A DNA stretch of 39,704 nucleotides from assembly GCA_951801955.1 (NCBI GenBank), contig CATOOV010000029.1:1-39704 (forward strand), in the 5' to 3' direction. Positions 6,664-35,609 of the stretch are shown here, piece after piece (the stretch's first letter is position 1; each line of letters starts with the position of its first letter). A program made the translations under genes and the position numbers. The notes beneath the pieces are model-generated. The model had not been told where the DNA came from. It saw nothing but the letters and a program-made list of their open reading frames with translations, and did no database searches. This stretch comes from an uncultured Lachnospiraceae bacterium. GTDB lineage: Bacteria; Bacillota; Clostridia; Lachnospirales; Lachnospiraceae.

Positions 6664-6738
6664 TATTCCGATACATGATGGAATCATTGCTGTTATTATT
6701 TAAAACCATTGCTCGCAAAAAATATAGAGGAAATACTT

Positions 6739-8092: not shown

Positions 8093-8181
8093 CAAAACCG
8101 ATTTTTTCTGTCATAATACAACAAGAATTTATAAATTCTTTATAATTTTTAAATTATTTTAAGAAAGTAGGAGAATAAGAA

Positions 8182-8800: not shown

Positions 8801-8802
8801 AA

Positions 8803-8840
8803 AAGGCAATTTTCTCAAGATTGAGGGAATTGCCCTTTTT
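8803..8840 (+). terminator. rho-independent terminator
   Basis: GGCAATT...CTCAA / TTGAG.GAATTGCC forms a stem of about 12 bp with one mismatch, followed by CTTTTTCTC. It closes the sigma/anti-sigma/DUF2085 region. Confidence 0.85.
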
Positions 8841-8944
8841 CTCTATATCAAAAACATTATGCGCAGGATCTTCCTCAGCAAAGGTACCCCTACGAGATTG
8901 TTTATTTGCTTTAGAATGCCAATGATTGTAAGATCATCAAAATA

Positions 8945-8972
8945 TTGACAAAAAATAATGCAATGATATAAT
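8945..8972 (+). promoter_or_regulatory. consensus promoter of the large surface protein
   Basis: TTGACA (8945-8950), a 16-base spacer and TATAAT (8967-8972) are both perfect hexamers. The start of transcription would be near 8979, giving a leader of 60-105 nt depending on the start codon used. Confidence 0.8.
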
Positions 8973-9084
8973 TTTAAAAGAGAAACGAATATATTAAATG
9001 TGAGCGTAAGAAAAATATCTCACAAAAAAGGAAATATGGATGAGGCGTCTGTCTCAAAATATGAAAAAAGAAGGGAAATGTGTG

Positions 9085-12000: not shown

Positions 12001-13638
12001 TCTTTCCATGGTTCGCTTTCTGACTGTCATCCAATCGTGCAGAACGGGCAGGTAGTGTGGTACTATACTGGAACGAAAACTGGGGATACCACGCCGATAT
12101 TCTGCAGGATTTCAGTAGACGGAAGGGAGACAACAGACAATCTGCTTGAAAATGAAAAGAAGACAACAATTTCTGCTGATCATGTAAGCTTAAGCCAGAC
12201 TTCCTATACCTATGATGGAAAGCCCAAGACGCCAACTGTCACTGTCAAGGATGGCGACAATACACTGGTGGAAAATACTGATTATACGATTGCTTACAGC
12301 AATAATGTCAATGTAGGGACGGCAAAAGTAACCATTACAGGAACAGGCGCTTATTCTGGTACAGTGACTAAAACATTCACGATCACAGAAGCTGCCCCGC
12401 CACAACAGCAAGCAAAGGAACTGTCCAAATGTACCATAACATTAAGTAAAACGACCTATACTTATGATGGAAAGCCCAAGACGCCAACTGTCACTGTCAA
12501 GGATGGCGACAATACACTGGTGGAAAATACTGATTATACGATTGCTTACAGCAATAATGTCAATGTAGGGACGGCAAAAGTAATCATTACAGGAACAGGC
12601 GCTTATTCTGGTACAGTGACTAAAACATTCACGATCACAGAAGCTGCCCCGCCACAACAGCAAGCAAAGGAACTGTCCAAATGTACCATAACATTAAGTA
12701 AAACGACCTATACTTATGATGGAAAGCCCAAGACGCCAACTGTCACTGTCAAGGATGGCGACAATACACTGGTGGAAAATACTGATTATACGATTGCTTA
12801 CAGCAATAATGTCAATGTAGGGACGGCAAAAGTAACCGTTACAGGAACAGGCGCTTATTCTGGGACGGTGACTAAAACATTCACGATCACAAAAGCTGCC
12901 CCGCCACAACAGCAAGCAAAGGAACTGTCCAAATGTACCATAACATTAAGTAAAACATCCTATACTTATGATGGAAAACCTAAGAAACCAACTGTTAAAG
13001 TCAAGGATGGAAAGAAAATCCTAGTAAAAAATATTGACTATACCATCACCTATCACAATAACGTCAATGCAGGGACAGCGAAAGTAACTGTGAAAGGAAA
13101 AGGAAATTATAAAGGGACGGTAAAAAAATCCTTTACTATTACCATAAAGAAGGGCACATCCCATAAAGTCAGTTCCTACCAGTATAAGGTGACGGCTGCA
13201 TCCACAGTATCAATGACGGCCGTAAAGAACAAAAAAGCTACAAAAATAAAAGTTCCCAAAACTGTGAAAATTGGCGGAAAGACTTTTAAAGTAACCGCTA
13301 TTGGCAGTAAGGCTTTCAAGAACAACAAAAAGATTACAAGCGTTGAAATTGGAGACAATGTAAAGATTATTGGTACATCCGCATTTGAAGGCTGCACAAA
13401 GCTTTGCAAGGCAACCCTTGGAAAAGGAGTTACGGAAATTGGCAGCAGCACATTTAAAAACTGCAAAAAGCTGGGAACCATAACCATAAAATCCACAAAG
13501 CTGAAAAAAGTTGGCAAGAATGCCCTGAAAAGTATCAAGGCTACTGCGAAGATCAAAGTTCCGGCAAGGAAATTGTCTGCCTACAAGAAATTGTTGCGAA
13601 ATAAAGGGCAGGGGAAAAAAGTGAAAATTGTAAAATAA
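9085..13638 (+). CDS. large secreted BspA-type LRR / Big2 / Ig-repeat protein
   Basis: The protein of about 1,517 residues starts with a signal peptide (MNKKRKVFRTISWMLVYALV). BspA-like LRR_5 repeats follow (about 60-500; for example LTEIVIPDTVVSLG and FTEIIIPDTVVSIG). A Big_2-type domain (about 540-620, ERLTLNPSSVVLNVGETAAL) and a beta-rich region without a recognised fold (about 625-1025) come next. Then come four Ig-like repeats with YDGKPKTP and a second LRR block in a lysine-rich C-terminus. Such proteins are surface or secreted adhesin-like proteins. No sortase motif or dockerin is seen. Starts at 9040 or 9061 would add 15 or 8 residues ahead of the signal peptide. Confidence 0.85.
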   Translation: MNKKRKVFRTISWMLVYALVLFSVPAFETTVAKAASDVLTSSDGLWKYELKEESGETVAVVDEYNGTDRDLVIPGEIDGYVAKYIGKPSGWTTVRLNRFDSITIPDSVTGFSNVPFFSHSHNLKFVSVGKNFGTNKYIRDINMLKGDETNDIQTKEYRVSSENELITAVDGVLYSKDMTKLEIYPVLKEDAVFTVPDGVTSINDYAMNNLQYLENLILPEGLQEIGTYCCKGASIRSVLLPNSLTRLDHGIFNESKLESIVLPETITEIGGYVFTGTPLTEIVIPDTVVSLGAGDFMNCEKLKSIVIGSGVASIGGNCFYGLTALETFEISEANPNFKSEGGMLLTKDGATLIQYAAAGNTQFILPNGVTTIANKACYGMPFTEIIIPDTVVSIGSNAFENCTKAETVYVPSSVTELGSSVFSGCTSLKTATIDARIASIHSTFDTCNALTELTLPETATSVADSVFFGDSLRSVRLKSSQAPSISYSIYLQGQDAETELIKKAANIRIFVPEGAQGYDVSPWSRMHIIYGDVIPAERLTLNPSSVVLNVGETAALQATVLPEDAIVQEYVWETSDEGIASVDSNGQIKALSAGTARIKVTAGELSTECIVTVRGDQPAQDFRIKTSGGTASSNYNAQNYTRWSKPMKSYLFGDGEGCFTRAEFINDKLVYETYGMDGTLKESGNIADELPLVGGFYVSGPNRFVVYGQSNSEGSDDMEVMRIVKYDQDWNRVSSCSLYGENTKVPFDAGSLRFAENGDKLYIRTSHKMYDNHQSNLQVAINMSSMEITDTFSYISNIDHGGYVSHSFNQFLQMDGDDLITLDHGDGYPRAAVLIKYPSIKDKTFAKASVKHINALEFPGTIGNNATGASLGGLEVSEHYYIFAGNYANDSGSSVRNIFVNITGKDFLRNKDTRMIYLTDFNADSGVTVSTPQLVKVNEKTFLVLWNETDTSGTTVHSQLIDEDGNKVTEEQSFHGSLSDCHPIVQNGQVVWYYTGTKTGDTTPIFCRISVDGRETTDNLLENEKKTTISADHVSLSQTSYTYDGKPKTPTVTVKDGDNTLVENTDYTIAYSNNVNVGTAKVTITGTGAYSGTVTKTFTITEAAPPQQQAKELSKCTITLSKTTYTYDGKPKTPTVTVKDGDNTLVENTDYTIAYSNNVNVGTAKVIITGTGAYSGTVTKTFTITEAAPPQQQAKELSKCTITLSKTTYTYDGKPKTPTVTVKDGDNTLVENTDYTIAYSNNVNVGTAKVTVTGTGAYSGTVTKTFTITKAAPPQQQAKELSKCTITLSKTSYTYDGKPKKPTVKVKDGKKILVKNIDYTITYHNNVNAGTAKVTVKGKGNYKGTVKKSFTITIKKGTSHKVSSYQYKVTAASTVSMTAVKNKKATKIKVPKTVKIGGKTFKVTAIGSKAFKNNKKITSVEIGDNVKIIGTSAFEGCTKLCKATLGKGVTEIGSSTFKNCKKLGTITIKSTKLKKVGKNALKSIKATAKIKVPARKLSAYKKLLRNKGQGKKVKIVK
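12199..13146 (+). repeat. 252-bp tandem repeats coding Ig-like domains
   Basis: Units begin at 12199, 12451, 12703 and 12955. The first three are almost identical at the DNA level, while the fourth is diverged (YDGKPKKPTVKVKDGKKIL). The array can change length by slippage or recombination and is a likely assembly collapse point. Confidence 0.95.
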
Positions 13639-13788
13639 TTTTGGAGAGAAAACCATCCTGTCAGGAACAAACTGCGGTGAAACAGAAGGATGCCGCTAAT
13701 GCATCCGACAATCCATCCCGGTCAATACGAAACAGGCCTCTATGAAATATTTCGTACTGCCGCAGGCGGAGAGTCTGGTGTAAAATAC

Positions 13789-13838
13789 AAAAATCCTACA
13801 ACATATAGAATATTTATACTATATGTTGTAGGATTTTT
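13789..13838. terminator. bidirectional terminator
   Basis: A perfect 20-bp stem (AAAAATCCTACAACATATAG paired with 13819-13838) with a 10-base loop, flanked by A-run and T-run, works in both directions between the converging 9085 gene and the leftward DUF885 gene. The rest of 13639-13928 holds no convincing gene. Confidence 0.92.
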
Positions 13839-13928
13839 ATCTTGCAGTGACTCATTCCTTATATACCAGGCACGGGCGCTTAATAACAGATTCTACGTCT
13901 AATTGTCCAAAACTTAATTTCCAAAGTA

Positions 13929-15674
13929 CTAGGATTCCCAGTACTTTGGAAGATAATCCTTTAGTATTTTAAAGGGCGCTGGTCCCATCTTCATCAACGC
14001 ATTGTGAAAACGGTAATTGCTGTAATCCTCACCATATTTTTTGACTGCATAATCTTTTAAGTTTAAAAATTCTAAATACCCAATATAATATTTCAAGTAA
14101 TGGGCTGGTTCCTCCACAATCAATTGGTATATTTCCTTAACCACCTGTTTATTTGAAATTTGATAGTTTGCAAAAAAATCTATGGTATCCCTCAATGTCC
14201 ACCCATCACAATGAATCCCCATATCTGCCGTTGCATAAAGGCTCAAAAGCGCTGATTGGTTTTTCTGTAAAAATGCCGCTACATCTTTATCTACATCTGC
14301 ATAATAGAAAGACTCCATTTCCACATAAGTTGCCCATCCTTCTGAATATCCGCTGCTTCCGAATAAACTGCGCACAGCAGGCAAGCCGCTGCTGCGCTCC
14401 ATAACATTTTGATACAAATGTCCTGGAAACCCTTCATGTGCAAGGGTAGTATACAGTTTTAACTTCTCATCCCCCTTTGCCTGATTAATATAAATATAAT
14501 TATTCGATATATCATCTATCGGCGGCGTCAAATAAAATGCCGGGGCCGTATACTCCTCCAGAGACGGATGCACTGATTTGATTGTAAATCCGACCTCTGG
14601 CGGCGCCGGAAAATCTTTTTGCATTTTAACCTGCAGATCTTTTAAAATTAATTCTGGTTCCTCTGTAGGAAGCTGGTAACTGCTGCACTTTTTCCCTACA
14701 TCTGGATACTTTAACGCCAACTCTGCAAGATCCTTCAAATCCTTTTTTCGCTTTGCCTCTGTCTGCTTTTGCATTTCTTCCACGGACAAATCAGAGCCTG
14801 TGACATCTGTTACCAGATAACGATAATACTCTTCTCCACCTGGCAATCCACAAAGGCCACCGCTGTTTGTTCCAGTTCCTTTTAATGCCGTAATCTCATT
14901 GGCCAGCATTTGATAAGCTGGAATAAACTGTTCTAACACAAGCTGGCGGTTTTGTGCTTTATAAGCCTCTGCCTGTTCTCCTGACAAAAACTTTGCTTGT
15001 TCCTGAATGCGGGTGTCAAATGTGGATAACAAGTAATTATTTTCAGGATTCTGTGTAAAATTACAGCACTGCTGCACAATATCTTCCGCTGCAAAATCAG
15101 CCATAAACAATCCCTGTTTTGATTTTTTCTTTTCTACTTCTACAATTTGATGAAAAAAATCAGGGGTACATGAGATCAATTCCAAATAATCTCGGATATC
15201 CTGCTCATCATAAAAAGTATATTCTGCCAAAAGAACTGGAAGCTGAGACTGAAACCCTGTACTCGGACGCAAAATCTCATCGTACTTGTCATGATCGGTT
15301 GCTGACAACTCCTTTTCAATGTAGTTTATCATAATGTCATAAGTCATCTGCTGAGAAATCATAAGATCTTTTTTCTGAAACCCACTTAATTTTTTTTTCC
15401 AATTTTCCAGAAGGGCAGATGCTTCCCTATTCGGCTCATTGGAGATCGTCCCATATGTAACAGTGTACTCGGAAATTCCATAGTTTTCTGGATGTGCCAG
15501 ACAATAATGCATATTTAAGGTACTTGCCTTAACTTCCGATTGAAAAAGCTGATCCGTATATTCTGAAAATTTCTGTTGTGTTTTTGGATTTCCTGCCTCC
15601 TTGGCACATCCACCCCCAAAACACATTAGAAGTAACATAACTAGAACCAGCCATTTGTAAAAATATTTTTTCAT
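13929..15674 (-). CDS. DUF885 family lipoprotein, probable metallopeptidase
   Basis: The 581-residue protein has a lipoprotein signal (MKKYFYKWLVLVMLLLMCFG, lipobox ending GGC at about residue 24). The C-terminal DUF885 domain carries HEGFPGH at 413-419 and a downstream SEGWATYVE, which fit a zinc peptidase active site. It should be anchored on the outer face of the membrane; substrate unknown. The stop codon lies inside a CCAAAGTACT/AGTACTTTGG hairpin (13921-13949). The ribosome binding site is weak (AAGCGAG). It is a single leftward gene between terminators. Confidence 0.85.
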   Translation of the reverse strand: MKKYFYKWLVLVMLLLMCFGGGCAKEAGNPKTQQKFSEYTDQLFQSEVKASTLNMHYCLAHPENYGISEYTVTYGTISNEPNREASALLENWKKKLSGFQKKDLMISQQMTYDIMINYIEKELSATDHDKYDEILRPSTGFQSQLPVLLAEYTFYDEQDIRDYLELISCTPDFFHQIVEVEKKKSKQGLFMADFAAEDIVQQCCNFTQNPENNYLLSTFDTRIQEQAKFLSGEQAEAYKAQNRQLVLEQFIPAYQMLANEITALKGTGTNSGGLCGLPGGEEYYRYLVTDVTGSDLSVEEMQKQTEAKRKKDLKDLAELALKYPDVGKKCSSYQLPTEEPELILKDLQVKMQKDFPAPPEVGFTIKSVHPSLEEYTAPAFYLTPPIDDISNNYIYINQAKGDEKLKLYTTLAHEGFPGHLYQNVMERSSGLPAVRSLFGSSGYSEGWATYVEMESFYYADVDKDVAAFLQKNQSALLSLYATADMGIHCDGWTLRDTIDFFANYQISNKQVVKEIYQLIVEEPAHYLKYYIGYLEFLNLKDYAVKKYGEDYSNYRFHNALMKMGPAPFKILKDYLPKYWES

Positions 15675-17433: not shown

Positions 17434-17898
17434 CTAATTATCAGTTTTCCCCACATCTTTTTTTCCATACCCCTTAAAAAATTCTGTCAAATTCTGCAAT
17501 GCTTTCACCAAGACTTCTGTCTGTTCTTTATTCATGCCTGCCAAGGTTGCCCTTATCATTTCATCATGAAATTTCTCATGATGGTCATAGGCATGTTTTC
17601 CTTTTTGAGACAGTGAAATCAACACCACACGGCGATCCTCCTCACTGCGCTCCCGGTTTACATATCCCTTTTTCACCAGATTATTTATTGCAATTGTCAA
17701 GGTTCCCACTGTCACAGACAAAGATTTCGCCACGGTAGACATATTTTTGGATTCTTTTTTTCCAATCGCTTCTATGATGTGCATGTCATTATTAGAAATA
17801 TCCTTGAATTCTTCTGTAATAATGGCTTTTTGTTCTATTTCCATAATGTCATTAAACAATTTTACCAATACTTCATTGATCGTATTATAGTTATCCAC
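17434..17898 (-). CDS. MarR family transcriptional regulator
   Basis: The 154-residue winged-helix protein contains MHIIEAIGKKESKNMSTVAK, the recognition helix region VTVGTLTIAINNLVKKGYV and the wing NRERSEEDRRVVLISLSQKG, all typical of MarR. It resembles the FabT-like regulators that often precede fatty-acid genes in Firmicutes. Here it points away from the biosynthetic cluster and is separated from it by repeats and the invertible segment, so a role in controlling it is only a possibility. AAGGAGGCG lies ahead of the start. Confidence 0.85.
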   Translation of the reverse strand: MDNYNTINEVLVKLFNDIMEIEQKAIITEEFKDISNNDMHIIEAIGKKESKNMSTVAKSLSVTVGTLTIAINNLVKKGYVNRERSEEDRRVVLISLSQKGKHAYDHHEKFHDEMIRATLAGMNKEQTEVLVKALQNLTEFFKGYGKKDVGKTDN

Positions 17899-18036: not shown

Positions 18037-18378
18037 GAACAAAAGTGCGCTTCACGCACCCCAGCGAACTACTTCTTTTCCTAACGCACCTTTTGTTCCG
18101 CGCCGCGCATGATTGCGAAGCAATAGTTTTCCTTTTGCGCCCGTGCGCATATTTATTTTTTCATATAGGGAATTTTACGAAATTTCCGAACACGATGTTT
18201 GGAAAAGGCTGATCTGAGCCATGGATGGCGAATATCAGCCGGTTGCGTAAAATTTTGATTTTTTCATGAGAACACTTAGAAATTCTTCTGTCCCTAACAC
18301 TTGGAACAATGGTTGCATTTATTTGTTCAATTTGCCAAGAAGGTTTTATGAAACATCCTTTTGACACCCGAATCTTAT
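18037..18378 (+). repeat. repeat family 1, copy C, split by extra sequence
   Basis: The core (GAACAAAAG 18037-18045 to CTTTTGTTC 18090-18098, then GC-rich hairpins to about 18150) matches copies A and B. A GGAATTTTACGAAATTTCC hairpin near 18168-18188 is shared with copy B. About 140 bp of unrelated sequence follows, and then a tail (about 18330-18378, CCTTTTGACACCCGAATC) matching the end of copy A. The interval 17966-18430 holds no supported gene. Confidence 0.7.
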
Positions 18379-18383: not shown

Positions 18384-18421
18384 AAAAAAGAGCGGTTCCC
18401 TAATTACTTAGTGAACCGCTC
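18384..18421 (-). terminator. leftward terminator beside the invertible segment
   Basis: On the minus strand GAGCGGTTC (18421-18413) and GAACCGCTC (18398-18390) form a 9-bp stem followed by TTTTTT (18389-18384). It stands 10 bp outside the left inverted repeat and would stop transcripts from the outward promoter in the present orientation. It has no T-run for rightward transcription. Confidence 0.85.
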
Positions 18422-18431
18422 CAAGCCGTTT

Positions 18432-18457
18432 GTTTCGTAGAGTATTTTCCTTGACGA
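18432..18457 (+). repeat. left 26-bp inverted repeat of the invertible segment
   Basis: The 26-bp sequence starting GTTTCGTAGAGTATTTTCC is repeated exactly, in inverted orientation, at 19885-19910. The match ends sharply at both sides, as expected of recombinase sites. Confidence 0.93.
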
Positions 18458-18485
18458 TCTAAAAAAATTTGTATTTAATAGAATA

Positions 18486-18514
18486 ATTATACTTATTGTT
18501 GTCGGATTTGTCAA
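18486..18514 (-). promoter_or_regulatory. consensus promoter, invertible, facing left here
   Basis: On the minus strand TTGACA (18514-18509), exactly 17 bases and TATAAT (18491-18486): both hexamers perfect. In this orientation the transcript begins near 18479, crosses the left inverted repeat and meets the terminator at 18421-18384, so nothing useful is expressed. In the flipped state it would drive the biosynthetic genes. Confidence 0.85.
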
Positions 18515-18537
18515 GGTGTAAAAGATGAAAAATGTAG

Positions 18538-18570
18538 AATCGACTCGAATTTTATAATATTTCGTCGATT
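18538..18570. promoter_or_regulatory. dyad between divergent promoters
   Basis: AATCGAC (18538-18544) and GTCGATT (18564-18570) flank an AT-rich centre containing TATAAT. The dyad sits between the outward promoter and the recombinase promoter and could be an operator or an accessory recombinase-binding site. Confidence 0.4.
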
Positions 18571-18575
18571 TTACT

Positions 18576-18604
18576 TTTACAAATCTTAGGATTCAAACTA
18601 TATT
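18576..18604 (+). promoter_or_regulatory. promoter of the recombinase gene
   Basis: TTTACA (18576-18581), 17 bases, TATATT (18599-18604). The transcript would start near 18611 with a 60-nt leader. Because it lies inside the inverted segment, it stays joined to its gene in either orientation. Confidence 0.65.
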
Positions 18605-18671
18605 AATACTCTTTTCTCCGTCATTTTGTCCGTCAGCAAATCAATAACCCCACAGAAAGGAAGGCTATTTT

Positions 18672-19811
18672 ATGGCAAGAACAGGTGAAAATATCTATAA
18701 ACGGAAAGACGGTCGTTGGGAAGGAAGATTTATTTATTCCTATGAAGAAAACGGCAAGGCAAAGTACAAGTATGTGTATGCAAAGACATATTCAGAGGTG
18801 AGAACAAAATTATTACAGGCACATCAACTCAGAGAAAATCAGCCGCAACGGCAATTGACCCTTTCAGAAAAATCTAAATATGAATACTGGCTGAATGAAT
18901 GGCTGTCGTCCAAAAAATTAAATATCAAAGAATCATCCTATATTCGTTATAGAAATTCCATAAACAACCACATTAACCCCCATTTAGGAAATTATTCCGT
19001 TGAAAAGATAAGTACTTCCCTTGTGGAAAATTTTGTATCAAACCTAATGGTAAACGGAAAACGAAATGGAGAAGGCGGATTATCCGTCAAAACCATATCC
19101 GACATTATGGTGATCGTAAAAGAAACCTTTCAGTATGCACAAAACCATGGGGTAACAACAATTTGCAATTTTGATCATATAACACTCAAAAAAAGCCCCC
19201 GTGAAATGCGTGTATTGACTAACTCGGAAATGCAGCGCCTTATCCATACTTTGTTACAGGAAGAAGACCTGTATAAACTTGGCGTGTTTCTTTGTTTATT
19301 TACTGGCATTCGAATTGGAGAACTCTGTGCGCTGCAGTGGAAACATATATCTCTTACAGACAATACAATCCGAATAGAACGGACAATGCAAAGACTCCAA
19401 ACGGAAGATAAAAATGTTATTCAGAAAACCCATATTATTATTACCGAGCCAAAAAGCTTTGCATCTATAAGAGTAATCCCTATTCCAGAGTTTATTGTTG
19501 AAGTGATAAGACCATATGAAAAAAGTTCAAATGCCTTTTTCCTCACCGGTGACTCTAAAAATTTTGTTGAACCACGGACAATGCAAAACCATTTTAAAGC
19601 CTATTTAAATGAAAGCAACATTGCAGATGCAAACTTCCACTCCCTGCGCCACACCTTTGCTACCCGCTGTGTCGAAGCCGGTTTTGATGTAAAAACGCTA
19701 AGTGAGATCCTAGGTCATTCAAGCGTAAAAATCACTTTAGATAAGTATGTCCACTCGTCTATAGATCTCAAGCGGATGAATATGGCAAAGCTGCAGATGA
19801 TGTTCCCTTAA
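18672..19811 (+). CDS. tyrosine site-specific recombinase (probable invertase)
   Basis: The 379-residue protein has an N-terminal arm-type DNA-binding region (about 1-60), a core-binding domain (about 68-165) and a C-terminal catalytic domain. Catalytic residues are R214 (TGIRIGEL), K261 (EPKS), H323 and R326 (HSLRH), H349 (LGHSS) and Y359 (DKYVH), so the enzyme looks intact. AAGGAAGG lies about 8 bases before ATG 18672. It is enclosed by the inverted repeats it probably acts on. An integrase of a mobile element is the alternative, but no other element genes or direct-repeat att sites are seen. Confidence 0.93.
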   Translation: MARTGENIYKRKDGRWEGRFIYSYEENGKAKYKYVYAKTYSEVRTKLLQAHQLRENQPQRQLTLSEKSKYEYWLNEWLSSKKLNIKESSYIRYRNSINNHINPHLGNYSVEKISTSLVENFVSNLMVNGKRNGEGGLSVKTISDIMVIVKETFQYAQNHGVTTICNFDHITLKKSPREMRVLTNSEMQRLIHTLLQEEDLYKLGVFLCLFTGIRIGELCALQWKHISLTDNTIRIERTMQRLQTEDKNVIQKTHIIITEPKSFASIRVIPIPEFIVEVIRPYEKSSNAFFLTGDSKNFVEPRTMQNHFKAYLNESNIADANFHSLRHTFATRCVEAGFDVKTLSEILGHSSVKITLDKYVHSSIDLKRMNMAKLQMMFP

Positions 19812-19843
19812 TCCTATTCGCCGTCAAAAAAATGGTCAGAGAG

Positions 19844-19885
19844 CAGGCATAAATTCCTTACGTACTATGGTTTATGCCTGTTTTT
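19844..19885 (+). terminator. terminator of the recombinase gene
   Basis: CAGGCATAAA (19844-19853) pairs with TTTATGCCTG (19871-19880), followed by TTTTT. It abuts the right inverted repeat and keeps recombinase transcripts out of the downstream cluster. Confidence 0.88.
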
Positions 19886-19910
19886 CGTCAAGGAAAATAC
19901 TCTACGAAAC
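19885..19910 (-). repeat. right 26-bp inverted repeat of the invertible segment
   Basis: Exact reverse complement of 18432-18457. The following gap, 19911-20081, holds a small AGTACC/GGTACT hairpin (about 19971-19992) and an isolated TATAAT at 20050-20055 without a recognisable -35 box, so only weak native promoter activity is expected in this orientation. Confidence 0.93.
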
Positions 19911-20081
19911 CTTGTTTCCATTTGTTTCTTGCATGTGCCAGTTCGCAGAGCTTTCCTATTATTTCTTCTATAGTACCGGATACATAAGGTACTTCCTTAA
20001 ACTAGTATTGGCGAAAAAAGATTTATGATACCTTTCTATTTGATATTTATATAATTATAACATATCAGCAGGTTTGAAACT

Positions 20082-21614
20082 TTGAATCGAAAAAAATATT
20101 TTGAAAGGATGAATCGTTTGAAAAAAAATTATGACGTTGAAAAACAGCACAAAAAGAAAAAATATCATGCAATCGAAAGAATATTGCTGTTATTAGATAA
20201 AGGGTCCTTTCGAGAGATTGGCTCAGGCATAAATAACTATGTATTCAATCACAATGAAAAGAATGAAAAATCAACGGAATATGATGGTGTTATTACTGGC
20301 AGGGGAACAATCGCCGGAAAAACGGTTTTTATTTTTTCTCAAGATTTCACCATATCCGGCGGATCCATTGGTTTAAACCATGGACGTAAGATTGCAAATA
20401 CCATTAAGCTTGCAATCAAAGCCAAATGTCCAGTGATCGGGTTATATGATTCTGGAGGTGCGCGAATCAGCGAAGGTATCAATGCTTTGGCTGGCTGCGG
20501 GGAAATGATGTATCAAAATACATGCGCCTCTGGCGTAATCCCACAAATTTCGATTGTTGCAGGTCCCTGTGCCGGAGCTGCTGCATATGCGCCGGCAATT
20601 ACAGATTTTGTATTTATTGTGGAACAGATTGGACAGCTATATATCACTGGCAACAAAGTGATTGAACGAGTTACAGGGGAAAAATGTTCATTACAGGAAC
20701 TAGGGGGAGCTAAAGTACATTCAGAAAAATCAGGTGTTGCACATTTTTCATTTACAAGTGAGAAAAAATGTTATGCACAAGTCAGAAAATTGATAAAAAC
20801 ACTTCCTTCAAGTTTTGACGAAAAAAGAGAATATAAAGATTTATCTTATTATGATACTCAACAAAAAGTCAATGAACTTGTTCCAAGAGACAATAAACTT
20901 CCCTATTCCATGCACAAATTAATTGAAAAAATCATTGATTTTGATTCCTTTATCGAAATACACAAGCACTTTGCTACAAATATGATTACTGGTTTCGCAC
21001 AAATAAACCATATTACAATTGGAATTGTTGCAAACAATCCAATGAATAATTCTGGTTGTATCGACCATGATTCAAGTGATAAAGCAGCTCGTTTTGTCAG
21101 GTTTTGTGATTCATTTCATATTCCTATCTTAACATTGGTTGATACCCCTGGATACTTACCAGGAATCTCTGAAGAACATCAAGGTATTATCCGTCATGGC
21201 GCTAAACTACTGTTTGCATATTCAGAAGCTACCACGACCAAAATTACAGTAATCGTAAGAAAAGCCTATGGAGGCGCATACATCGCTATGGGCAGCAAAC
21301 ATTTAGGCGCCGACTATGTGTACGCATGTCCAAACGCATCACTTGCTGTTATGGGAGCTGAAGGCGCAGTTTCTATTTTATATCAAAAAGAGTTATCCAA
21401 TACACCAGACGATCAAGTTGACGCATTTAAAGACAAACTTGTGGGCGAATATATACAAAAATACATGAATCCGGCAATTGCCCAGTCAGAGGGGTATGTA
21501 GATGATGTGATTTCTCTTGATGAGATACGCCAGCGTGTCTTTGAAGATATAAAGTCTTTTGAAAAGAAAAGTACAGGCGCCATCAAGAAAAAACATGGCA
21601 ACATACCATTGTAA
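20082..21614 (+). CDS. acyl-CoA carboxyltransferase subunit (12S / PccB-like)
   Basis: The 510-residue biotin-dependent carboxyltransferase has two crotonase-like halves. N-terminal motifs are SGGSIGLNHGRKIAN, DSGGARISEG and GPCAGAAAYAPA; C-terminal motifs are VDTPGYLPGISEEHQGII and KAYGGAYIAMGS. It would move the carboxyl group between carboxybiotin and an acyl-CoA, making malonyl- or methylmalonyl-CoA. The start is probably TTG 20082 with AGCAGG about 9 bases upstream; ATG 20109 lacks a spaced site. First gene of the biosynthetic operon. No biotin carboxylase gene lies nearby, which points to a transcarboxylase with the next two genes. Confidence 0.88.
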   Translation: MNRKKYFERMNRLKKNYDVEKQHKKKKYHAIERILLLLDKGSFREIGSGINNYVFNHNEKNEKSTEYDGVITGRGTIAGKTVFIFSQDFTISGGSIGLNHGRKIANTIKLAIKAKCPVIGLYDSGGARISEGINALAGCGEMMYQNTCASGVIPQISIVAGPCAGAAAYAPAITDFVFIVEQIGQLYITGNKVIERVTGEKCSLQELGGAKVHSEKSGVAHFSFTSEKKCYAQVRKLIKTLPSSFDEKREYKDLSYYDTQQKVNELVPRDNKLPYSMHKLIEKIIDFDSFIEIHKHFATNMITGFAQINHITIGIVANNPMNNSGCIDHDSSDKAARFVRFCDSFHIPILTLVDTPGYLPGISEEHQGIIRHGAKLLFAYSEATTTKITVIVRKAYGGAYIAMGSKHLGADYVYACPNASLAVMGAEGAVSILYQKELSNTPDDQVDAFKDKLVGEYIQKYMNPAIAQSEGYVDDVISLDEIRQRVFEDIKSFEKKSTGAIKKKHGNIPL

Positions 21615-21641
21615 AATTTAATTTTGTGAGGATAACACATC

Positions 21642-23156
21642 ATGTTAGGATTTACTGAAACAGTTTTAAGGGATGCAAACCAATCGTTAGCTGCCACCCG
21701 TATGTCCAGAGAAGATTTTAAAGGTATCTTGTCTGAAATAGACAAAGCTGGATATTATTCTGTAGAATGTTGGGGCGGGGCAACCTTCGACTCCTGCATC
21801 CGCTATCTAAATGAAGATCCCTGGGAACGTCTTCGTTTTCTGCGCAGGATGATGCCGAACACAAAACTGCAAATGCTGCTGCGCGGGCAAAACCTTCTGG
21901 GATACAGCCAGTACCCCACAGAAATTGTCAGGGATTTTATTGAAACAGCGATTAAAAACGGGATTGATATTATCCGCATCTTCGATGCATTGAATGATAT
22001 TGAAAATATGAAAGACGCCATCAAAGCTACTCTGGATTTCGGCGGCTTTCCATCCTGTGCCCTATGTTATACAGTCAGCCCAGTCCATAATATCCATGCG
22101 TATATTAAACTGGCAAAAGAACTGGAACACTTAGGAGCTATGTCTATCTGTATCAAAGATATGTCCGGCTGCCTGATGCCAGACAAAGCATATGAGTTAG
22201 TGAGAGAATTAAAGGACGTTTTATCTGTGCCAGTGATATTACATACACATAATTCCTCTGGATGTGCTCAAATGGCATGCTTGAAAGCAATTGAAGCAGG
22301 CGTAGATGTTATAGATACCGCAATTTCATGTTTTTCTGGCGGAACTTCCCAAGCCCCGACAGAAACAATGGCATTGACAGCAAAACAGTTGGGAAGAAAA
22401 GTCCATCTTGATATGTCATGTCTGGTACAGATCAATCGTCATTTCAAAAAGGTTTTTGACAAAATGATTAAAAACAAAACGATTGATTACCATTCCATGC
22501 AGACAGATACGCAAAGTTTGATTCGCCAAGTTCCCGGAGGCATGTATTCGAATCTTCTTTCTCAAATGAAATCACAGGGAATCTCACACAGATTGGATGA
22601 AGTGTTACAGGAGGTTCCGCTGGTTCGAAAAGACTTAGGTTATCCGCCCCTTGTAACACCTATTAGCCAAATGGTAGCAACACAAGCGGTAGCTAACGTG
22701 ATTACAGAAGAAAGATATAAGATCGTAATAAATGAAATAAAGGCTTATGTGTGTGGAAATTATGGAAAAGCTCCAGGGAAAATAGATCCCCAAATCAAAA
22801 AAACAATACTTAAGAACAACTCTGCTGCAATTAAGACAGAACATGAATATTTAAAGGCAAAAAAAGCGTGTTTATCAAACGGATGCACACCAGAAGATAT
22901 GTTGATACATGTTATGTTTCCCCAGTTGGCTGAGGAATTCTTTTCCAGCGTCTCAGAAGACAGGGAAGGAGTGTTTACGTTTGCCTGCACAAACCATGAA
23001 GATACTGCAGACGATGAAAATTTAACTGCGCTTAATACAAATGAAGCCTATGATGAGTTGTCAGTCCTCTTTACAGCAATTATCTCTTATTATACGCATG
23101 TGGATGTCAGCGACATCACAATCCATAAAATTTACAGATATTGTTGGTCCGATTAA
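21642..23156 (+). CDS. transcarboxylase 5S / oxaloacetate decarboxylase alpha-like subunit
   Basis: The 504-residue HMGL-like TIM-barrel carboxyltransferase starts FTETVLRDANQSLAATRM; the family's His after Asp-Ala is Asn here, while the metal-binding Asp remains. CIKDMSGCL supplies the carbamylated lysine and ILHTHNSSG the metal-binding histidines. The C-terminal PYC/OADA domain is present. In 5S proteins this domain transfers CO2 from oxaloacetate to biotin and releases pyruvate. Twenty-seven bases after the 12S-like gene. No sodium-pump OadB subunit is found, so energy-coupled oxaloacetate decarboxylation is unlikely. Confidence 0.88.
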   Translation: MLGFTETVLRDANQSLAATRMSREDFKGILSEIDKAGYYSVECWGGATFDSCIRYLNEDPWERLRFLRRMMPNTKLQMLLRGQNLLGYSQYPTEIVRDFIETAIKNGIDIIRIFDALNDIENMKDAIKATLDFGGFPSCALCYTVSPVHNIHAYIKLAKELEHLGAMSICIKDMSGCLMPDKAYELVRELKDVLSVPVILHTHNSSGCAQMACLKAIEAGVDVIDTAISCFSGGTSQAPTETMALTAKQLGRKVHLDMSCLVQINRHFKKVFDKMIKNKTIDYHSMQTDTQSLIRQVPGGMYSNLLSQMKSQGISHRLDEVLQEVPLVRKDLGYPPLVTPISQMVATQAVANVITEERYKIVINEIKAYVCGNYGKAPGKIDPQIKKTILKNNSAAIKTEHEYLKAKKACLSNGCTPEDMLIHVMFPQLAEEFFSSVSEDREGVFTFACTNHEDTADDENLTALNTNEAYDELSVLFTAIISYYTHVDVSDITIHKIYRYCWSD

Positions 23157-23171
23157 TAAAGGAGTACAGAT

Positions 23172-23552
23172 ATGAAATATGATATTTGTTTAAATGGAAA
23201 TAAATATGTGGTTGAAATTGAAAGTTCAAAGGCACAAATTCTGGAAAAGAAGGCTGTTGCTGACAATGAAACAGATCTCCTTGATCTCCCTGATTTTGAT
23301 TTTGGCGAGGAGAAGAATGAAACCTCCAGCATAAAGGCAGCCCTGCCAGGAACTGTCATTGCTGTCAATGTGAAAGTGGGAGAAGAAGTATACAAAGGTC
23401 AAACAATGATTATCCTTGAATCCATGAAGATGGAAAACCCAATTACAGCGCCTTGTGATTGTTATATAGAACACCTTTCCGTAAATGTTGGTTCTTATGT
23501 TAAGAAAGATCAAGAATTGGTGTCTTTCAAAATCCCGGAACTGGCGGTTTGA
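23172..23552 (+). CDS. biotin carboxyl carrier protein (1.3S-like)
   Basis: The 126-residue protein has a variable N-terminal half and a biotinyl domain (about 55-120) with ALPGTVIAVNVKVGEEV and ESMKMEN. K86 is the biotinylation site. It should shuttle carboxyl between the 5S-like and 12S-like partners. Fifteen bases after the 5S-like gene, with GGAG ahead of ATG. Confidence 0.92.
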   Translation: MKYDICLNGNKYVVEIESSKAQILEKKAVADNETDLLDLPDFDFGEEKNETSSIKAALPGTVIAVNVKVGEEVYKGQTMIILESMKMENPITAPCDCYIEHLSVNVGSYVKKDQELVSFKIPELAV

Positions 23553-23595
23553 TACATTGTTACCTATCAAACCATCCATCTTTTATTGTGATATC

Positions 23596-24219
23596 ATGGA
23601 GATTTGCATTGACCCAAACATCCTTTGCCGATTGCCCATAGAACGGCAAAACAGAATTAGGGCTTCCATAAAACCGATCAAAGCAAAACAATTATATGCA
23701 TCGTCATTGCTGACCTTTTTTATATTCGAGAAATATGGCATCAAAAGCCCAGCAATCCAAACCTCTGAGTACGGAAAACCATATATAGGAGAAGGCTTAT
23801 ATTTTAATATATCCCATAGCGGCAGGTTCGTAGTATTAGCTATTAACCCATATGATGAAATTGGCATTGACATACAAGAAAAGAACCCTGTCTCAGACTA
23901 TGCGGCAGAAATGTTCTTTTCCCGCAGCATTTTAGGACATCGTTCCATAAATGAAAGGATGGCATTTTACAATTCTTATCTATGGTGCAGATATGAGGCT
24001 TTCTTAAAATGTTTAGGGGTTGGCTGGAATTTTACAATCAAACACAAACTGCCTGTATTAAAACATTCCGTCCATCATCATGAAACAACGTATTATTTCA
24101 CAGATTATCGTATCTCAGAACACTATTTTACAACACTATGTGAGAAAAACTACCACGTAGAATTTCCCGTTGAGGAGGTGTGCTTTCGTGAACTTGAATT
24201 ATTCTGCCGACCAGATTAA
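23596..24219 (+). CDS. Sfp-type 4'-phosphopantetheinyl transferase
   Basis: The 207-residue protein has the PPTase motifs: YGKPYIGEGLYFNISHSG (59-76), EIGIDIQ (88-94) with the Mg-binding Asp92, and WCRYEAFLKCLGVG (130-143) with Glu134 and Lys138. It attaches phosphopantetheine to a carrier protein, here most likely the ACP at 26770. ATG 23596 is chosen because the conserved protein begins there; the ribosome site is weak. It overlaps the next gene by 32 bases. Confidence 0.88.
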   Translation: MEICIDPNILCRLPIERQNRIRASIKPIKAKQLYASSLLTFFIFEKYGIKSPAIQTSEYGKPYIGEGLYFNISHSGRFVVLAINPYDEIGIDIQEKNPVSDYAAEMFFSRSILGHRSINERMAFYNSYLWCRYEAFLKCLGVGWNFTIKHKLPVLKHSVHHHETTYYFTDYRISEHYFTTLCEKNYHVEFPVEEVCFRELELFCRPD

Positions 24220-24700
24220 TGAATGGATCCTGCAAAATGAAAAAATAAAACGGGTATTCTATCAGGAAATCCATCCTCGTTTCTCTGACTGTATTTACAA
24301 TCGGAAAATCCATTTTTCCAAATATTTTGAATTTTTTGAGATGGCACGTTTTGAAATTATGCTTTTATTCTATGATTATCTGAAAGAAAAAAAAACATCT
24401 GACGCTCCCCCCAGCCTCGGCAACTTTGTTGTCGTAAGAGCCTCCTTTGAAAGCTATCCTGATTTGGGACTGCCAGTCAATGGCTTTGTGAAGATAAAAA
24501 CTGCTTTTATTATACATCATAAACCTCTACTTGAATTTGAACAAACTGCCTTTACAAAATCTGGCAACCCCTGTGTAAAGGCAAATATCAAAATCGCAAT
24601 TGTAAATGAGAAATTTGAAAAAATTGAAAACTGGGAGCGGGATATTTTGGGTGCAATGCTTGCATTTACAAACCAGTATGGAAAGGAAGAAACAGCATGA
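24188..24700 (+). CDS. hot-dog fold protein, probable acyl thioesterase or dehydratase
   Basis: The 170-residue protein has YFEFFEMARFEIMLLFYDYL followed by VVVRASFESYPDLGLPVNGFVKIKT and FEQTAFTKSGNPCVKANIKIAIVNE, the helix-then-strands layout of the 4HBT/hot-dog superfamily. The catalytic residues cannot be assigned with certainty. The start is GTG 24188 with an ideal GAGGAGG 9 bases upstream. Stop overlaps the malonyltransferase start (ATGA). A role on ACP-bound intermediates, either hydrolysis or dehydration, is inferred from context. Confidence 0.6.
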   Translation: MNLNYSADQINEWILQNEKIKRVFYQEIHPRFSDCIYNRKIHFSKYFEFFEMARFEIMLLFYDYLKEKKTSDAPPSLGNFVVVRASFESYPDLGLPVNGFVKIKTAFIIHHKPLLEFEQTAFTKSGNPCVKANIKIAIVNEKFEKIENWERDILGAMLAFTNQYGKEETA

Positions 24701-25641
24701 ATATTTGTTTGATGTTTCCAGGACAAGGAACGCAAAAACCAGGAATGTTACGGGAACTGGGAAACAAAATGGAGGAAGCAAACCCTGTGTTTCAAGTTGC
24801 AAAAGAGGTTACAGGAAGGGATATCAAACAACTCTGTTTATCAGCAAACGCTGAAGAACTGCAGAAAACAGAAAACACCCAATTAGCCGTAACCGCTATG
24901 AACCTTGCATATTTACACTTGTTACACAACGATGGAATCAAACCAAACATCACATTGGGGCATAGTTTGGGACAATTTTCTGCATTTGTCGCAGCTAACG
25001 TTTTAACCCTTGAACAAGTATTTTTGATTGTTCAAAAAAGAGCGGAATTGATGAGTAACGTCCATCGTTCTGGAATGTTATGTTCCGTTTTAGGAATGGA
25101 TATGGAAACGGTTGGCGAGATCTGTAAACGTACGGATCCATCTTCAGAACATTTAGTTGTGGCGCTGCATAACACCCAAAATCAAATCGTAATCGGCGGT
25201 GAACCAGAGTATGTTCTAAAAGCAGAAGAACAATGCATATCAAAAGGCGCCTTAAAAACGGTTCCCATACGGGTATCCAATGCATTCCATACCCCCCTGA
25301 TGCAGGGGATGGTGCAAGAATACGCTGAATTTATAGACAAAATTGAATTCGGCATTCCAAGAATTAAAGTAATGTTAAATTGTAAAGGTAACTTTGCGGC
25401 AGATGTACAAGATATAAAAGATGAAATTAAAAATCAATGCTGCCATACCGTTTTCTGGTATGAAGGCGTGAAAAAAATTTTGAATTTTTATCCTAATATT
25501 GTTTTTGCAGAAACTGGCGTGGGCAAAGTCCTAACTGGCATGATGCGCAGTATTGACAATCAACAGAAAATGTTTATGCTGTCAAACCCTGCACAGTACA
25601 ATAAATTTGTAAACTCAGTCAAATACCCCGCAGCAAGCTGA
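24697..25641 (+). CDS. fabD: malonyl-CoA:ACP transacylase
   Basis: The 314-residue acyltransferase has MFPGQGTQKPGM, the nucleophile motif GHSLGQ with Ser90, QKRAELM with Arg115 (carboxylate binding, favouring malonyl-type substrates) and NAFHTPLM with His198. It loads the extender unit onto ACP. The last residues KYPAAS and the stop are encoded by a structured sequence that continues beyond the gene. Start overlaps the previous stop. It may be a cluster-specific copy; whether another fabD exists elsewhere cannot be seen. Confidence 0.92.
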   Translation: MNICLMFPGQGTQKPGMLRELGNKMEEANPVFQVAKEVTGRDIKQLCLSANAEELQKTENTQLAVTAMNLAYLHLLHNDGIKPNITLGHSLGQFSAFVAANVLTLEQVFLIVQKRAELMSNVHRSGMLCSVLGMDMETVGEICKRTDPSSEHLVVALHNTQNQIVIGGEPEYVLKAEEQCISKGALKTVPIRVSNAFHTPLMQGMVQEYAEFIDKIEFGIPRIKVMLNCKGNFAADVQDIKDEIKNQCCHTVFWYEGVKKILNFYPNIVFAETGVGKVLTGMMRSIDNQQKMFMLSNPAQYNKFVNSVKYPAAS

Positions 25642-25693
25642 CGGGGCATGCCTTAGCTTGTTTTTAGTAAGTTCGCCCCAAGGGGCGGGGTAT
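25623..25693 (+). repeat. structured repeat-like element after fabD
   Basis: ATACCCCGC (25623-25631) can pair with GCGGGGTAT (25685-25693), or its CCCCG with CGGGG at 25642-25646. A separate CGCCCC-AA-GGGGCG hairpin lies at 25674-25687. The folds are mutually exclusive. A 14-base piece, TACCCCGCAGCAAG, recurs at 26711-26724. The remainder of the 241-base gap (to 25882) contains no gene. It may be a REP-like repeat or an attenuator. Confidence 0.5.
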
Positions 25694-25882
25694 TCGACCC
25701 TCGCGGCATTCGTCAAATATCCATGTAAACATGTCTATTTTCCTCATTGCTCGCGGGAATAAAACAATTTGAAAAATTGCCAGGACAAATCTAAGATATT
25801 TTGGAAGATTTATAACTTTTACAGTCCAAAAAACAATTAAAACCTAAATTTGAAAACAAAAAATAACAGGAGGAGTGATAAA

Positions 25883-26629
25883 ATGTTTCAACCAGGTTCT
25901 ATTGCACTGGTAACCGGAGCTTCCAGCGGTATCGGTCAGGCTATTGCCATTAATCTTGCAAGAAATGGGGTTACGGTACTAATCAATTATTGCAAAAGTG
26001 AAAATGGTGCGCTTGACACACTCAAAATTATAGAACAAAACGGCGGCTGCGGCGAAACCATCCAATGTGATGTGACAGATGCAGCAGCAGTCAATCAAAT
26101 GTTTCTCTATATAAAGAAAAAATACAAGTCCCTTGATATTTTAATTAACAATTCAGGTATTACCAAAGACGGGTATCTCTTGATGATGAGTGAAGAAAAC
26201 TTTTTCAAAGTTATGGAGACAAATATGGGCGGCTGCTTTCATTGCACCCAAGGCGCAGTCCGATTGATGTGCGCATCAAAACGAGGAGGCGCTATTGTAA
26301 ATATTTCCTCTACAAGCGGCGTGGTAGGTCAGGAAGGGCAGGCAAATTATTCTGCCTCCAAAGGTGCAATGATCTCCTTTACAAAAACAACAGCAAAAGA
26401 ATATGCCAAACATGGCATACGTGCAAACGTAGTCGCACCAGGATTTGTAGAGACCAAAATGACCCAAAAAAGTGAAAAACTTTTAAAAGAAAAATACACG
26501 CAGTATATTCCCATGGGAAGATTCGGAAGCCCTGACGAAGTGGCCGAAGTCGTAACATTTCTTGCTTCTTCAAAAGCTTCCTATATCACAGGAAAATGTA
26601 TCGTCGTTGACGGTGGTTTAACAATGTAA
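25883..26629 (+). CDS. fabG: 3-oxoacyl-ACP reductase
   Basis: The 248-residue short-chain dehydrogenase has TGASSGIGQA (11-20, NADP binding), NNSG (89-92) and the catalytic set N114, S143, Y156, K160 (YSASKGA). The C-terminal PGFVETKMT and VVDGGLTM are typical of FabG. It would reduce beta-keto groups on ACP. Start ATG 25883 with AGGAGGAG about 9 bases upstream; an earlier TTG at 25850 has no good site. Confidence 0.92.
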   Translation: MFQPGSIALVTGASSGIGQAIAINLARNGVTVLINYCKSENGALDTLKIIEQNGGCGETIQCDVTDAAAVNQMFLYIKKKYKSLDILINNSGITKDGYLLMMSEENFFKVMETNMGGCFHCTQGAVRLMCASKRGGAIVNISSTSGVVGQEGQANYSASKGAMISFTKTTAKEYAKHGIRANVVAPGFVETKMTQKSEKLLKEKYTQYIPMGRFGSPDEVAEVVTFLASSKASYITGKCIVVDGGLTM

Positions 26630-26655
26630 TTTATCTCATCAAAAATTGAGATAAA
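26630..26655 (+). other. hairpin just after fabG
   Basis: TTTATCTCA (26630-26638) and TGAGATAAA (26647-26655) form a perfect 9-bp stem one base beyond the fabG stop. No T-run follows; it could protect the 3' side of an mRNA fragment or mark a processing site in the 140-base gap before the ACP gene. Confidence 0.4.
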
Positions 26656-26769
26656 AGCCTTTGGCGTATTGCAGGGATGCGGATTTGTTTTTGCCAGTAG
26701 AGCTGGACTGTACCCCGCAGCAAGAAGACAATGGCGTTTTTGAATTCATTCGAAAGGAAGTATCAGATT

Positions 26770-27087
26770 ATGGAATTAGCGACAAAAGAACAAGTATTAG
26801 AGTATGCAAAAAAAAGACGAATGGTTTGTGCTGCGATAAAAAGAATTATCGTGGACCAGTTATGTCTTGATATCGAGCCGGAATTTATTACAAACGACCA
26901 GCCCTTATTTGGACGTGGATTAGAACTGGATTCCATTGATGCATTGGAGCTTGCTGTAGGAATCTTTTCAGAATTTTCAGTAACGGTTTCCGATGGCAAT
27001 TCAGCCGTTTTCAGCTCCGTAAATACCATTGCCGACTATATTATGTCACAAGATTACGATGATTCAAATTTGCAGCCTGTTGACTAA
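26770..27087 (+). CDS. acyl carrier protein
   Basis: The 105-residue protein has FGRGLELDSIDALELAVGI with the phosphopantetheine Ser55 in LDSID. The helix layout is typical of ACP, but it has about 20 extra residues at the N-terminus (MELATKEQVLEYAKKRRMV) compared with standard ACP (75-80 residues). Start ATG 26770 with AAAGGAAG upstream. Dedicated carrier for the ketosynthase system. Confidence 0.88.
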   Translation: MELATKEQVLEYAKKRRMVCAAIKRIIVDQLCLDIEPEFITNDQPLFGRGLELDSIDALELAVGIFSEFSVTVSDGNSAVFSSVNTIADYIMSQDYDDSNLQPVD

Positions 27088-27105
27088 ACATACAGGAGGT
27101 AGGAA

Positions 27106-27588
27106 ATGAAAATGGAAGCGCAGATGATTTCTAACCTTTTACCACATAGATACCCTTTTTTATTGCTGGATCAGGTAATAAAACTGGATCCTGGTAAAAG
27201 CGCGGTAGGAATTAAAAATGTAACAATCAATGAACCTTATTTTACTGGACACTTTCCTGGCGAACCGATTGTGCCAGGCGTTTTATTGGTGGAGAGTTTG
27301 GCACAGTTGACTGCCGTCATGTATTCCACAGGACATTTTCCAGAAACAATCGATTGGGAGCATCTAGAAAGTGAAGAGATAGACTTTCGTGGCGTTGCGT
27401 CTAAAGTTGGCTATCTAGTCAATATTAAAAATATAAAATTTAAACAACTCGTGCGTCCTGGCGACACACTAGAACTGCGTGTTTATAAAAAAACCCAATT
27501 TGAAAACTTATCGCAAATTAAAGTGGAAGCCTATGTTGATGGAAAAAATGTTGTAGATGGCATAATTTCTGTCAGCGAAAGACCATAG
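27106..27588 (+). CDS. fabZ: (3R)-hydroxyacyl-ACP dehydratase, FabZ-like
   Basis: The 160-residue hot-dog protein has LLPHRYPFLLLDQV (11-24) and the signature GHFPGEPIVPGVLLVESLAQ with His49 and Glu63. These residues carry out dehydration in FabZ. It would convert beta-hydroxyacyl-ACP to trans-2-enoyl-ACP. AGGAGGTAGGAA precedes ATG 27106. Eighteen bases after the ACP gene. Confidence 0.92.
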   Translation: MKMEAQMISNLLPHRYPFLLLDQVIKLDPGKSAVGIKNVTINEPYFTGHFPGEPIVPGVLLVESLAQLTAVMYSTGHFPETIDWEHLESEEIDFRGVASKVGYLVNIKNIKFKQLVRPGDTLELRVYKKTQFENLSQIKVEAYVDGKNVVDGIISVSERP

Positions 27589-27611
27589 ACCAATGTAAAG
27601 GAGTATAACCA

Positions 27612-28700: not shown

Positions 28701-28718
28701 TTATAAGGAGGACAGGCA

Positions 28719-31154: not shown

Positions 31155-31195
31155 AGGGCACTAAGCCATTTAAGGGTCAGTATGAGGTAAAAAGA

Positions 31196-31552: not shown

Positions 31553-31574
31553 CAGTGGAAAGAAGGAAAATAGA

Positions 31575-32516: not shown

Positions 32517-32599
32517 AAGACCTCTATGACAATCATTTATTTTGAAACAGATACTGCCTCATGTTTTGATTCCGTTGTAATTTAGAAAGGGAAAACTTT

Positions 32600-33610: not shown

Positions 33611-33640
33611 TACAACGATTAAGAAGAAAGGAAATGAAGC

Positions 33641-35588: not shown

Positions 35589-35609
35589 ATAGATATGGAG
35601 GAAAATAAC

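Follow-up and report, generated by a model that had tools for sequence, protein, structure and literature searches.

The inverting segment of the Hin switch of Salmonella carries an outward-facing promoter. The invertase gene also lies within that segment, and an 844-bp fimbrial inversion of Providencia stuartii encloses the open reading frame of a recombinase near its target; both promoter inversion and the placement of a recombinase inside the inverting segment are already known from these two systems, as they are described in PMC5903667. The locus analysed here lies in the 39,704-nt contig CATOOV010000029.1 of an uncultured Lachnospiraceae bacterium (hereafter the window, meaning the whole stretch). 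Positions 18432-19910 are predicted, with a probability of roughly 0.8, to form a self-flipping promoter switch for the adjacent type II polyketide-like gene cluster, assembled in the OFF state. As in Hin, the recombinase gene would travel inside the inverting segment, and as in P. stuartii it is enclosed near the target (PMC5903667). Hin, however, is a serine recombinase (PMC3798978, PMC4817059), whereas the window encodes a tyrosine recombinase beside a predicted biosynthetic target, and the P. stuartii inversion differs in its imperfect 14-bp repeats and in having fimbriae as its target (PMC5903667).

Two further systems are close in host or in function. For gut Clostridia, the hCom2 study reported inverton group 139 and invertase group 35, with tyrosine recombinases and orientation shifts in cultures (PMC11892184). 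These groups may belong to the recombinase family of the window; by two sets of coordinates in that source, however, about 205-230 bp separate the arms of inverton group 139, which is too short for a recombinase. In Photorhabdus, the mad switch ties promoter inversion to natural-product formation, as is predicted for the window, with pepteridines formed in the P form (PMC5384830). The mad switch separates two phenotypic forms, and its segment, 266 bp not counting its repeats, carries the promoter only (PMC5903667), whereas the putative switch of the window directly abuts biosynthetic genes. Searches of open-licence PubMed Central (PMC) papers listed no tyrosine-recombinase switch that both encodes its own enzyme and directly precedes a biosynthetic cluster, which is weak evidence of absence.

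The predicted invertible segment, its promoter and its recombinase

The features of the predicted switch are, in window coordinates:

18432-19910, no strand: predicted invertible segment, 1,479 bp including its arms (repeat finding and family comparison)
18432-18457, plus strand: left arm, a recombination site GTTTCGTAGAGT-ATTTTC-CTTGACGA composed of two inverted half-sites and a spacer
19885-19910, minus strand: right arm, the exact reverse complement of the left arm
18486-18514, minus strand: outward promoter TTGACA-17-TATAAT (12/12), pointing left as assembled (consensus scan)
18384-18421, minus strand: predicted terminator outside the left arm, in the path of the outward promoter, giving the OFF geometry (folding and our own terminator rule)
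18576-18604, plus strand: possible but weak recombinase promoter TTTACA-17-TATATT (10/12; consensus scan)
18672-19811, plus strand: tyrosine recombinase of 379 aa with catalytic R-K-H-R-H-Y (Pfam and alignment)
19840-19885, plus strand: predicted recombinase terminator, with a U-tract extending into the right arm (folding and our own terminator rule)
20082-21614, plus strand: first cluster gene, an MmdA-like carboxyltransferase, with an in-frame ATG at 20109 as an alternative start

The two arms are complementary at 26 of 26 positions (100%), as a first-pass annotation made from the sequence had stated. They are separated by 1,427 nt. A 26-nt match of this kind would be expected by chance about 2e-9 times in a comparison of 2 kb with 2 kb, and the arm sequence occurs in only two copies genome-wide when up to 3 mismatches are allowed (the assembly is 88.76% complete). 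A single intact gene, that of the recombinase, lies between them. The segment is thereby bounded by inverted repeats as an inverton is and, at the level of sequence, it also holds a promoter that faces outward (12/12) and has a target beyond one arm, as judged by an in-silico flip.

The outward promoter is located 28 bp inward of the left arm and matches the sigma-70 consensus perfectly. About 5e-4 such perfect sites would be expected in the segment if base frequencies were equal, a figure that is rough because the region is AT-rich. As assembled, the promoter faces left into a hairpin at 18390-18421 on the minus strand, which is followed by six U (-21.4 kcal/mol, z -3.8). A second hairpin, at about 19840-19885, follows the recombinase (-19.2 kcal/mol, z -3.9). 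Both hairpins are absent from the consensus scan and were both detected by our separate terminator rule. When the segment is inverted by script, the arms stay as they are and the promoter comes to lie at 19828-19856 (plus strand), about 225 bp upstream of the first possible start codon at 20082; our rule found no terminator within 160 bp beyond the right arm. The geometry proposed in the first-pass annotation, with a perfect promoter facing a terminator and inversion redirecting it towards 20082, was reproduced.

The recombinase matches the Phage_integrase domain at 1.5e-27 and retains all six catalytic residues (R214, K261, H323, R326, H349 and Y359), which are invariant across 28 aligned relatives. 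It is an intact tyrosine recombinase, as had been claimed, and not a serine recombinase of the Hin invertase type. An AlphaFold2 model was of middling quality, with a predicted local distance difference test score (pLDDT) of 79 and a predicted template-modelling score (pTM) of 0.56, and residues 350-359, including the catalytic tyrosine, had pLDDT below 50; its best fold match was the Tn1549 integrase, with a template-modelling (TM) score of only 0.41-0.42 by query length. A PADLOC run on the recombinase gave no match. One relative, P0001, is 99% identical.

It had also been claimed that the recombinase has its own promoter and terminator and is always expressed. The terminator was recovered by folding. 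The promoter at 18576-18604 is a weak candidate, because it matches at 10 of 12 positions amid many comparable sites: the region holds 18 sites of at least 9/12 against 12.7 (sd 3.3) expected. Expression of the recombinase in both states would depend on this weak match.

The switch is likely to operate as follows. The recombinase would recombine the two identical 26-bp repeats, and each inversion would turn the predicted strong promoter either towards the cluster (ON) or into the predicted terminator (OFF, as assembled). The copy in the window is inferred to flip and to drive most transcription of the cluster, with the recombinase expressed in either orientation; the outcome would be a mixed population. 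If the copy does flip, producers and non-producers of the compound would coexist even in a clonal population. A culture begun from OFF cells could then look silent, which would be a concrete cause of 'cryptic' clusters in gut anaerobes. The cluster could then be fixed in the ON state by choosing or locking the orientation.

Shared layout of the recombinase family

With the single recombinase protein as the query, no match was obtained among the genome contigs. The family query was an alignment of 28 relatives, and 87 loci were examined, comprising the best 80 of 496 genome-contig loci and 7 of 42 viral-contig loci; the viral loci left out were L147, which is the same as L146, and 34 with at most 40% identity or a partial match. 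Inverted repeats enclose the recombinase in 67 of the 87 loci; their usual distance from it is 170-300 bp on the upstream side and 60-100 bp on the downstream side. A recombinase that travels with its segment, regarded as exceptional in the first-pass annotation, is instead the rule in this family, and the same has been reported for Hin and P. stuartii (PMC5903667). Eight of the 20 loci that have no flanking repeat end less than 450 bp upstream or less than 300 bp downstream, at a contig end. Together with the window and L058 the 67 loci make 69, or 64 after removal of near-identical copies, and the 64 fall into 61 clusters at 80% protein identity, so the family loci do not represent one clone. 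L053-L057 and L059-L063 stand outside the 69; L059 has a long imperfect flanking repeat, and L060 has repeats elsewhere.

Tyrosine recombinases need partner sites, each made of inverted half-sites around a shared spacer. The arms of the family share the form TTTCGTAGAGT, five variable bases, ACTCTACGAAA, with the outer half-site better conserved. The spacers were compared in 60 of the 69 loci, leaving out L091-L095 (near-identical to L090), L138 (a 532-bp repeat), L058 (another motif), and L111 and L116 (left arm cut off). Among the 60 there are 46 distinct 5-bp spacers, and the two arms of a locus have the same spacer in 56 of 60 cases, against 35 of 3,540 cross-locus pairs, although the former value is partly built in because the arms were found as matching repeats. 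The conserved half-sites around a locus-specific spacer are not built in by arm finding. The family, window included, has core sites with two inverted half-sites and a spacer shared by the two arms of a locus, the last with the reservation just given. Some contigs break at the arms (L111 starts at the arm edge, L116 starts inside the arm and L102 ends in the site), and these breaks were not used as evidence. In L138, a perfect 532-bp inverted repeat (9235-9766 and 11175-11706) includes the arms and extends outside the cassette; either target DNA was duplicated on both sides or the repeat is an assembly artefact.

Promoters and terminators are placed consistently as well. Between the left arm and the start of the recombinase, an outward promoter of at least 11/12 is present in 41 of the 64 distinct loci and an inward one in 1 of 64; mononucleotide shuffles gave outward promoters in a mean of 0.54 loci. 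Terminators were counted in 63 of the 69 loci (without L091-L095 and L138). One stands between the recombinase and the right arm in 34 of the 63 (2 after shuffling), while outward-facing terminators were found outside the left arm in 37 loci and outside the right arm in 12, each against 1 in shuffled sequence. The outer terminator is on the left only in 35 loci, including the window, on the right only in 10, on both sides in 2 and on neither in 14, with 2 loci not scorable; thus 45 of 61 scorable loci have a terminator on one outer side only. With the recombinase on the plus strand the promoter points left, so that left-only loci have the OFF geometry and right-only loci the ON geometry. The right-hand gene is directed away from the cassette in 34 of the 35 left-only loci, as is the left-hand gene in 9 of 9 scorable right-only loci. 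Fisher tests gave p values of 0.006 and 0.0005, for loci that are related and with kinship ignored.

These patterns suggest that the terminator usually stands on the non-target side. The family comparison supports, independently of the locus itself, a promoter-inversion switch in OFF geometry, as the first-pass annotation had proposed for the window. With its site form, its promoter at one end and its terminator on the non-target side, the layout would make ON and OFF geometry callable from an assembly and would help to find further switches of this kind, among them those next to type VII secretion genes.

Among 62 proteins chosen from 142 neighbour genes of the relatives, no ketosynthase, acyltransferase, AMP-binding or condensation domain was found (Pfam, E 1e-10), so the target in the window looks unusual for the family. 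Distant relatives (32-35% identity) were also found inside inverted repeats of 25-29 bp in 5 of 8 plasmid loci examined, namely L249, L250, L252 and L253 on plasmids of Enterococcus raffinosus and L254 of Vescimonas; the layout therefore reaches into Bacilli.

Orientation and competing explanations

Both orientations relative to a homologous target were found between species. The cassettes of L129 (9742-11216) and L141 (1638-3112) are 93.0% identical over 1,478 bp from arm to arm, with recombinases 97% identical, and a homologous target (71% at the nucleotide level) begins a few bases from the arm, to the right of the cassette in L129 but to its left in L141; the two cassettes sit in opposite orientation relative to it. 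Similarly, an operon with a BTAD/SARP-like regulator lies to the right of the cassette in L085 but to its left in L086 and L101, up to three genes being in common order, and targets on opposite sides were also found in L109 versus L114 and L136 versus L138. Because these comparisons are between species and the other flanks are unmatched, they show both orientations relative to the target and not a flip within one strain. In L114 the gene of the type VII secretion protein EssC (5793-9461, minus strand) is left of the cassette, in ON geometry by gene and promoter direction, and in L109 an EssC homologue (31% identical; 11204-15205, plus strand) is right of it, in OFF geometry. Type VII secretion is likely to be phase-variable at loci of the L114/L109 type, as judged from this geometry.

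Several observations weigh against a flipping promoter switch. A flipped copy of the window locus was not found, with a single copy of the locus compared. All seven copies of the L090 element (L090-L095 and G384) have one orientation, and the two full copies detected in 392 genomes of the order are among these seven, since G403 is L091 by coordinates; the three E. raffinosus copies are alike and of one orientation; and L146/L147 show one orientation, with no clear flanking repeat there. In a search of viral contigs for the other orientation, two arm motifs gave no match and four recombinase 28-mers matched only contigs already in the set. L085, one of the opposite-side examples, has no good outward promoter, and the same-genus relatives L053-L056 (45-47% identity) have no repeat flanking the recombinase in the stretches examined. 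Gene direction is not enough by itself to identify the target: 11 of 32 scorable left genes in left-only loci, that of the window included, also point away from the cassette, as do 6 of 10 right genes in right-only loci. Fourteen loci lack an outer terminator altogether. Finally, weaker promoter-like sequence lies right of the right arm, for instance a TATAAT at 20050 with a poor -35 element, and expression of the cluster from such sequence in the OFF state is possible.

The last point leads to the alternative that the cluster is driven mainly by a promoter right of the right arm and that the cassette only modulates it. An AT-rich stretch with the TATAAT at 20050 (noted by eye), 9/12 sites at 19935 and 20074, and a structured RNA left of the cassette would fit this, but 9/12 sites are equally common in shuffled sequence and the family pattern places the strong promoter inside the segment, which makes the alternative rather improbable. 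A locked relic, in which a cassette that once flipped no longer does so in this lineage and the cluster is either OFF for good or driven by another promoter, is also unlikely: only one orientation is known for the window locus and the contig passes both arms unbroken, as would suit a population of one orientation, yet decay would be expected of an unused switch, whereas the recombinase is intact with its six catalytic residues, the arms match at 26/26, and the promoter and both hairpins are intact.

Two other explanations assign the segment a different role, and for both the odds appear slim. Under one of them, the assembled orientation would serve the FabT-like regulator at 17434-17898, and flipping would trade fatty-acid regulation against product formation. 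Lying downstream of the outward promoter, this left gene faces away from the cassette on the minus strand, and it matches FabT at 160.6 bits against an NCBIfam cutoff of 200. A strong hairpin terminator intervenes, however, in keeping with the terminators on a single outer side in the family (45 of 61), and the fabT-like gene is outside the genomic island described below, with the same neighbours in congeners that lack the island; a two-way switch of this kind is accordingly very unlikely. It is likewise very unlikely that the promoter is incidental and that the recombinase acts as an integrase, either for the 21-kb island or for a small mobile element bounded by terminal repeats. The gene does lie near the left end of the island, its best match among solved structures is the Tn1549 integrase, and in two pairs of loci the cassettes resemble each other more closely than the flanks do. 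Against this, the repeats flank the segment with the recombinase only and not the island, no exact direct repeat of at least 10 bp was found between the island edges, and promoter and terminator placement is consistent family-wide.

Beyond the promoter switch proposed for the window, a broader proposal is that the cassette is portable, a 1.4-1.5-kb module (recombinase, its terminator, strong divergent promoter and two core sites) that spreads alone or by arm exchange among Clostridia. Operons beside it, such as type VII secretion genes, erm(B) and here the polyketide-like cluster, would be placed under random ON/OFF control, and the product would be bet-hedged. This is held tentatively, at somewhat less than even odds. 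Because cassettes are far more alike than their flanks in L129/L141 (93%) and in L109 (9802-11218) versus L116 (2-1417; 90%), where matching flanks are about 68-72% alike, an exchange of cassettes between hosts apart from their targets is suggested. The cassette at L090 (9803-12400), near-identical in six species, precedes a small gene and, in L090, erm(B).

The predicted target cluster and its genomic island

The remaining features to the right and left of the switch are:

21642-35418, plus strand: rest of the cluster (Pfam/NCBIfam gene content)
35580-37208, plus strand: 542-aa protein, unmatched in Pfam and NCBIfam, that may belong to the cluster
about 18035-39100, no strand: island between the FabT-like gene and a Gate-domain, presumably SpmA-like, gene (comparison with congeners)
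17434-17898, minus strand: FabT-like MarR regulator left of the island, on the non-target side (NCBIfam)
18152-18278, plus strand: TwoAYGGAY RNA (RF01731; Rfam 64.8 bits, cutoff 43)

All genes from 20082 to 35418 are transcribed rightward. They include a transcarboxylase-like part (MmdA-like and OadA-like carboxyltransferases and a biotin carrier), a malonyl transferase, a ketoreductase, an acyl carrier protein (ACP; Pfam 3.5e-6), FabZ, a GcvT-like protein and an ATP-binding cassette (ABC) transporter, with weak matches to phosphopantetheinyl transferase (PPTase)-like and hotdog thioesterase-like proteins. At 28719-31154 an 811-aa fusion of a ketosynthase (KS) and a chain-length factor (CLF) is encoded, whose first half retains the ketosynthase C-H-H and whose second half lacks it, as in chain-length factors (by eye). 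The cluster thus holds the parts of a type II polyketide synthase, a KS with C-H-H, a KS-like CLF without it and an ACP, and the genes from 20082 are predicted to form a natural-product cluster of the type II polyketide-like kind; the biosynthetic target named in the first-pass annotation is borne out by this gene content. Of a SbnA/SbnB-like pair, SbnB is above its NCBIfam cutoff and SbnA below, and the pair is predicted to form 2,3-diaminopropionate. The likely product, although a guess based on the genes present, would be a reduced type II polyketide or fatty-acyl compound linked to 2,3-diaminopropionate, with the ABC transporter as its exporter.

The cispentacin (amc) cluster is similar in its KS with a KS-like partner, its ACP and its hotdog enzyme (PMC10698177). 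The window differs from amc in its ketoreductase, FabZ, transcarboxylase-like genes and SbnA/SbnB, and the four matching amc models all fall below their NCBIfam cutoffs: AmcF (283/325 bits), AmcG (21.5/80), AmcB (32/80) and AmcE (52/140). An AMP-binding domain of the AmcH ligase type is absent among the cluster proteins scanned. A cispentacin product was rejected, and the product is left unnamed because the cispentacin-type models match below their cutoffs. Relatives of the cluster (P0122-P0141) stand at 71-81%. Beyond the window, a search with the KS-CLF fusion gave one match at 42% in 392 genomes (E 1e-150) and one at 41% in 397 (E 1e-120). The first cluster gene was searched for in 28 other genomes of the genus, where its best match reaches 36% identity.

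The FabT-like gene directly adjoins the Gate-domain gene in three of the four congeners compared (L243, L245 and L246); their site is empty, so the stretch of about 18035-39100 is an insertion relative to them. The fourth congener, L244, has the FabT-like gene, with no FabT/Gate junction in the stretch examined. The TwoAYGGAY RNA sits inside the island, between the FabT-like gene and the left arm, and was set aside as a component of the switch because no match at the gathering score was found in 16 relatives' loci. The island of about 21 kb holds the cassette, the cluster and a hemerythrin/response-regulator gene, and the Gate-domain gene, which we take to be SpmA-like, follows at 39178.

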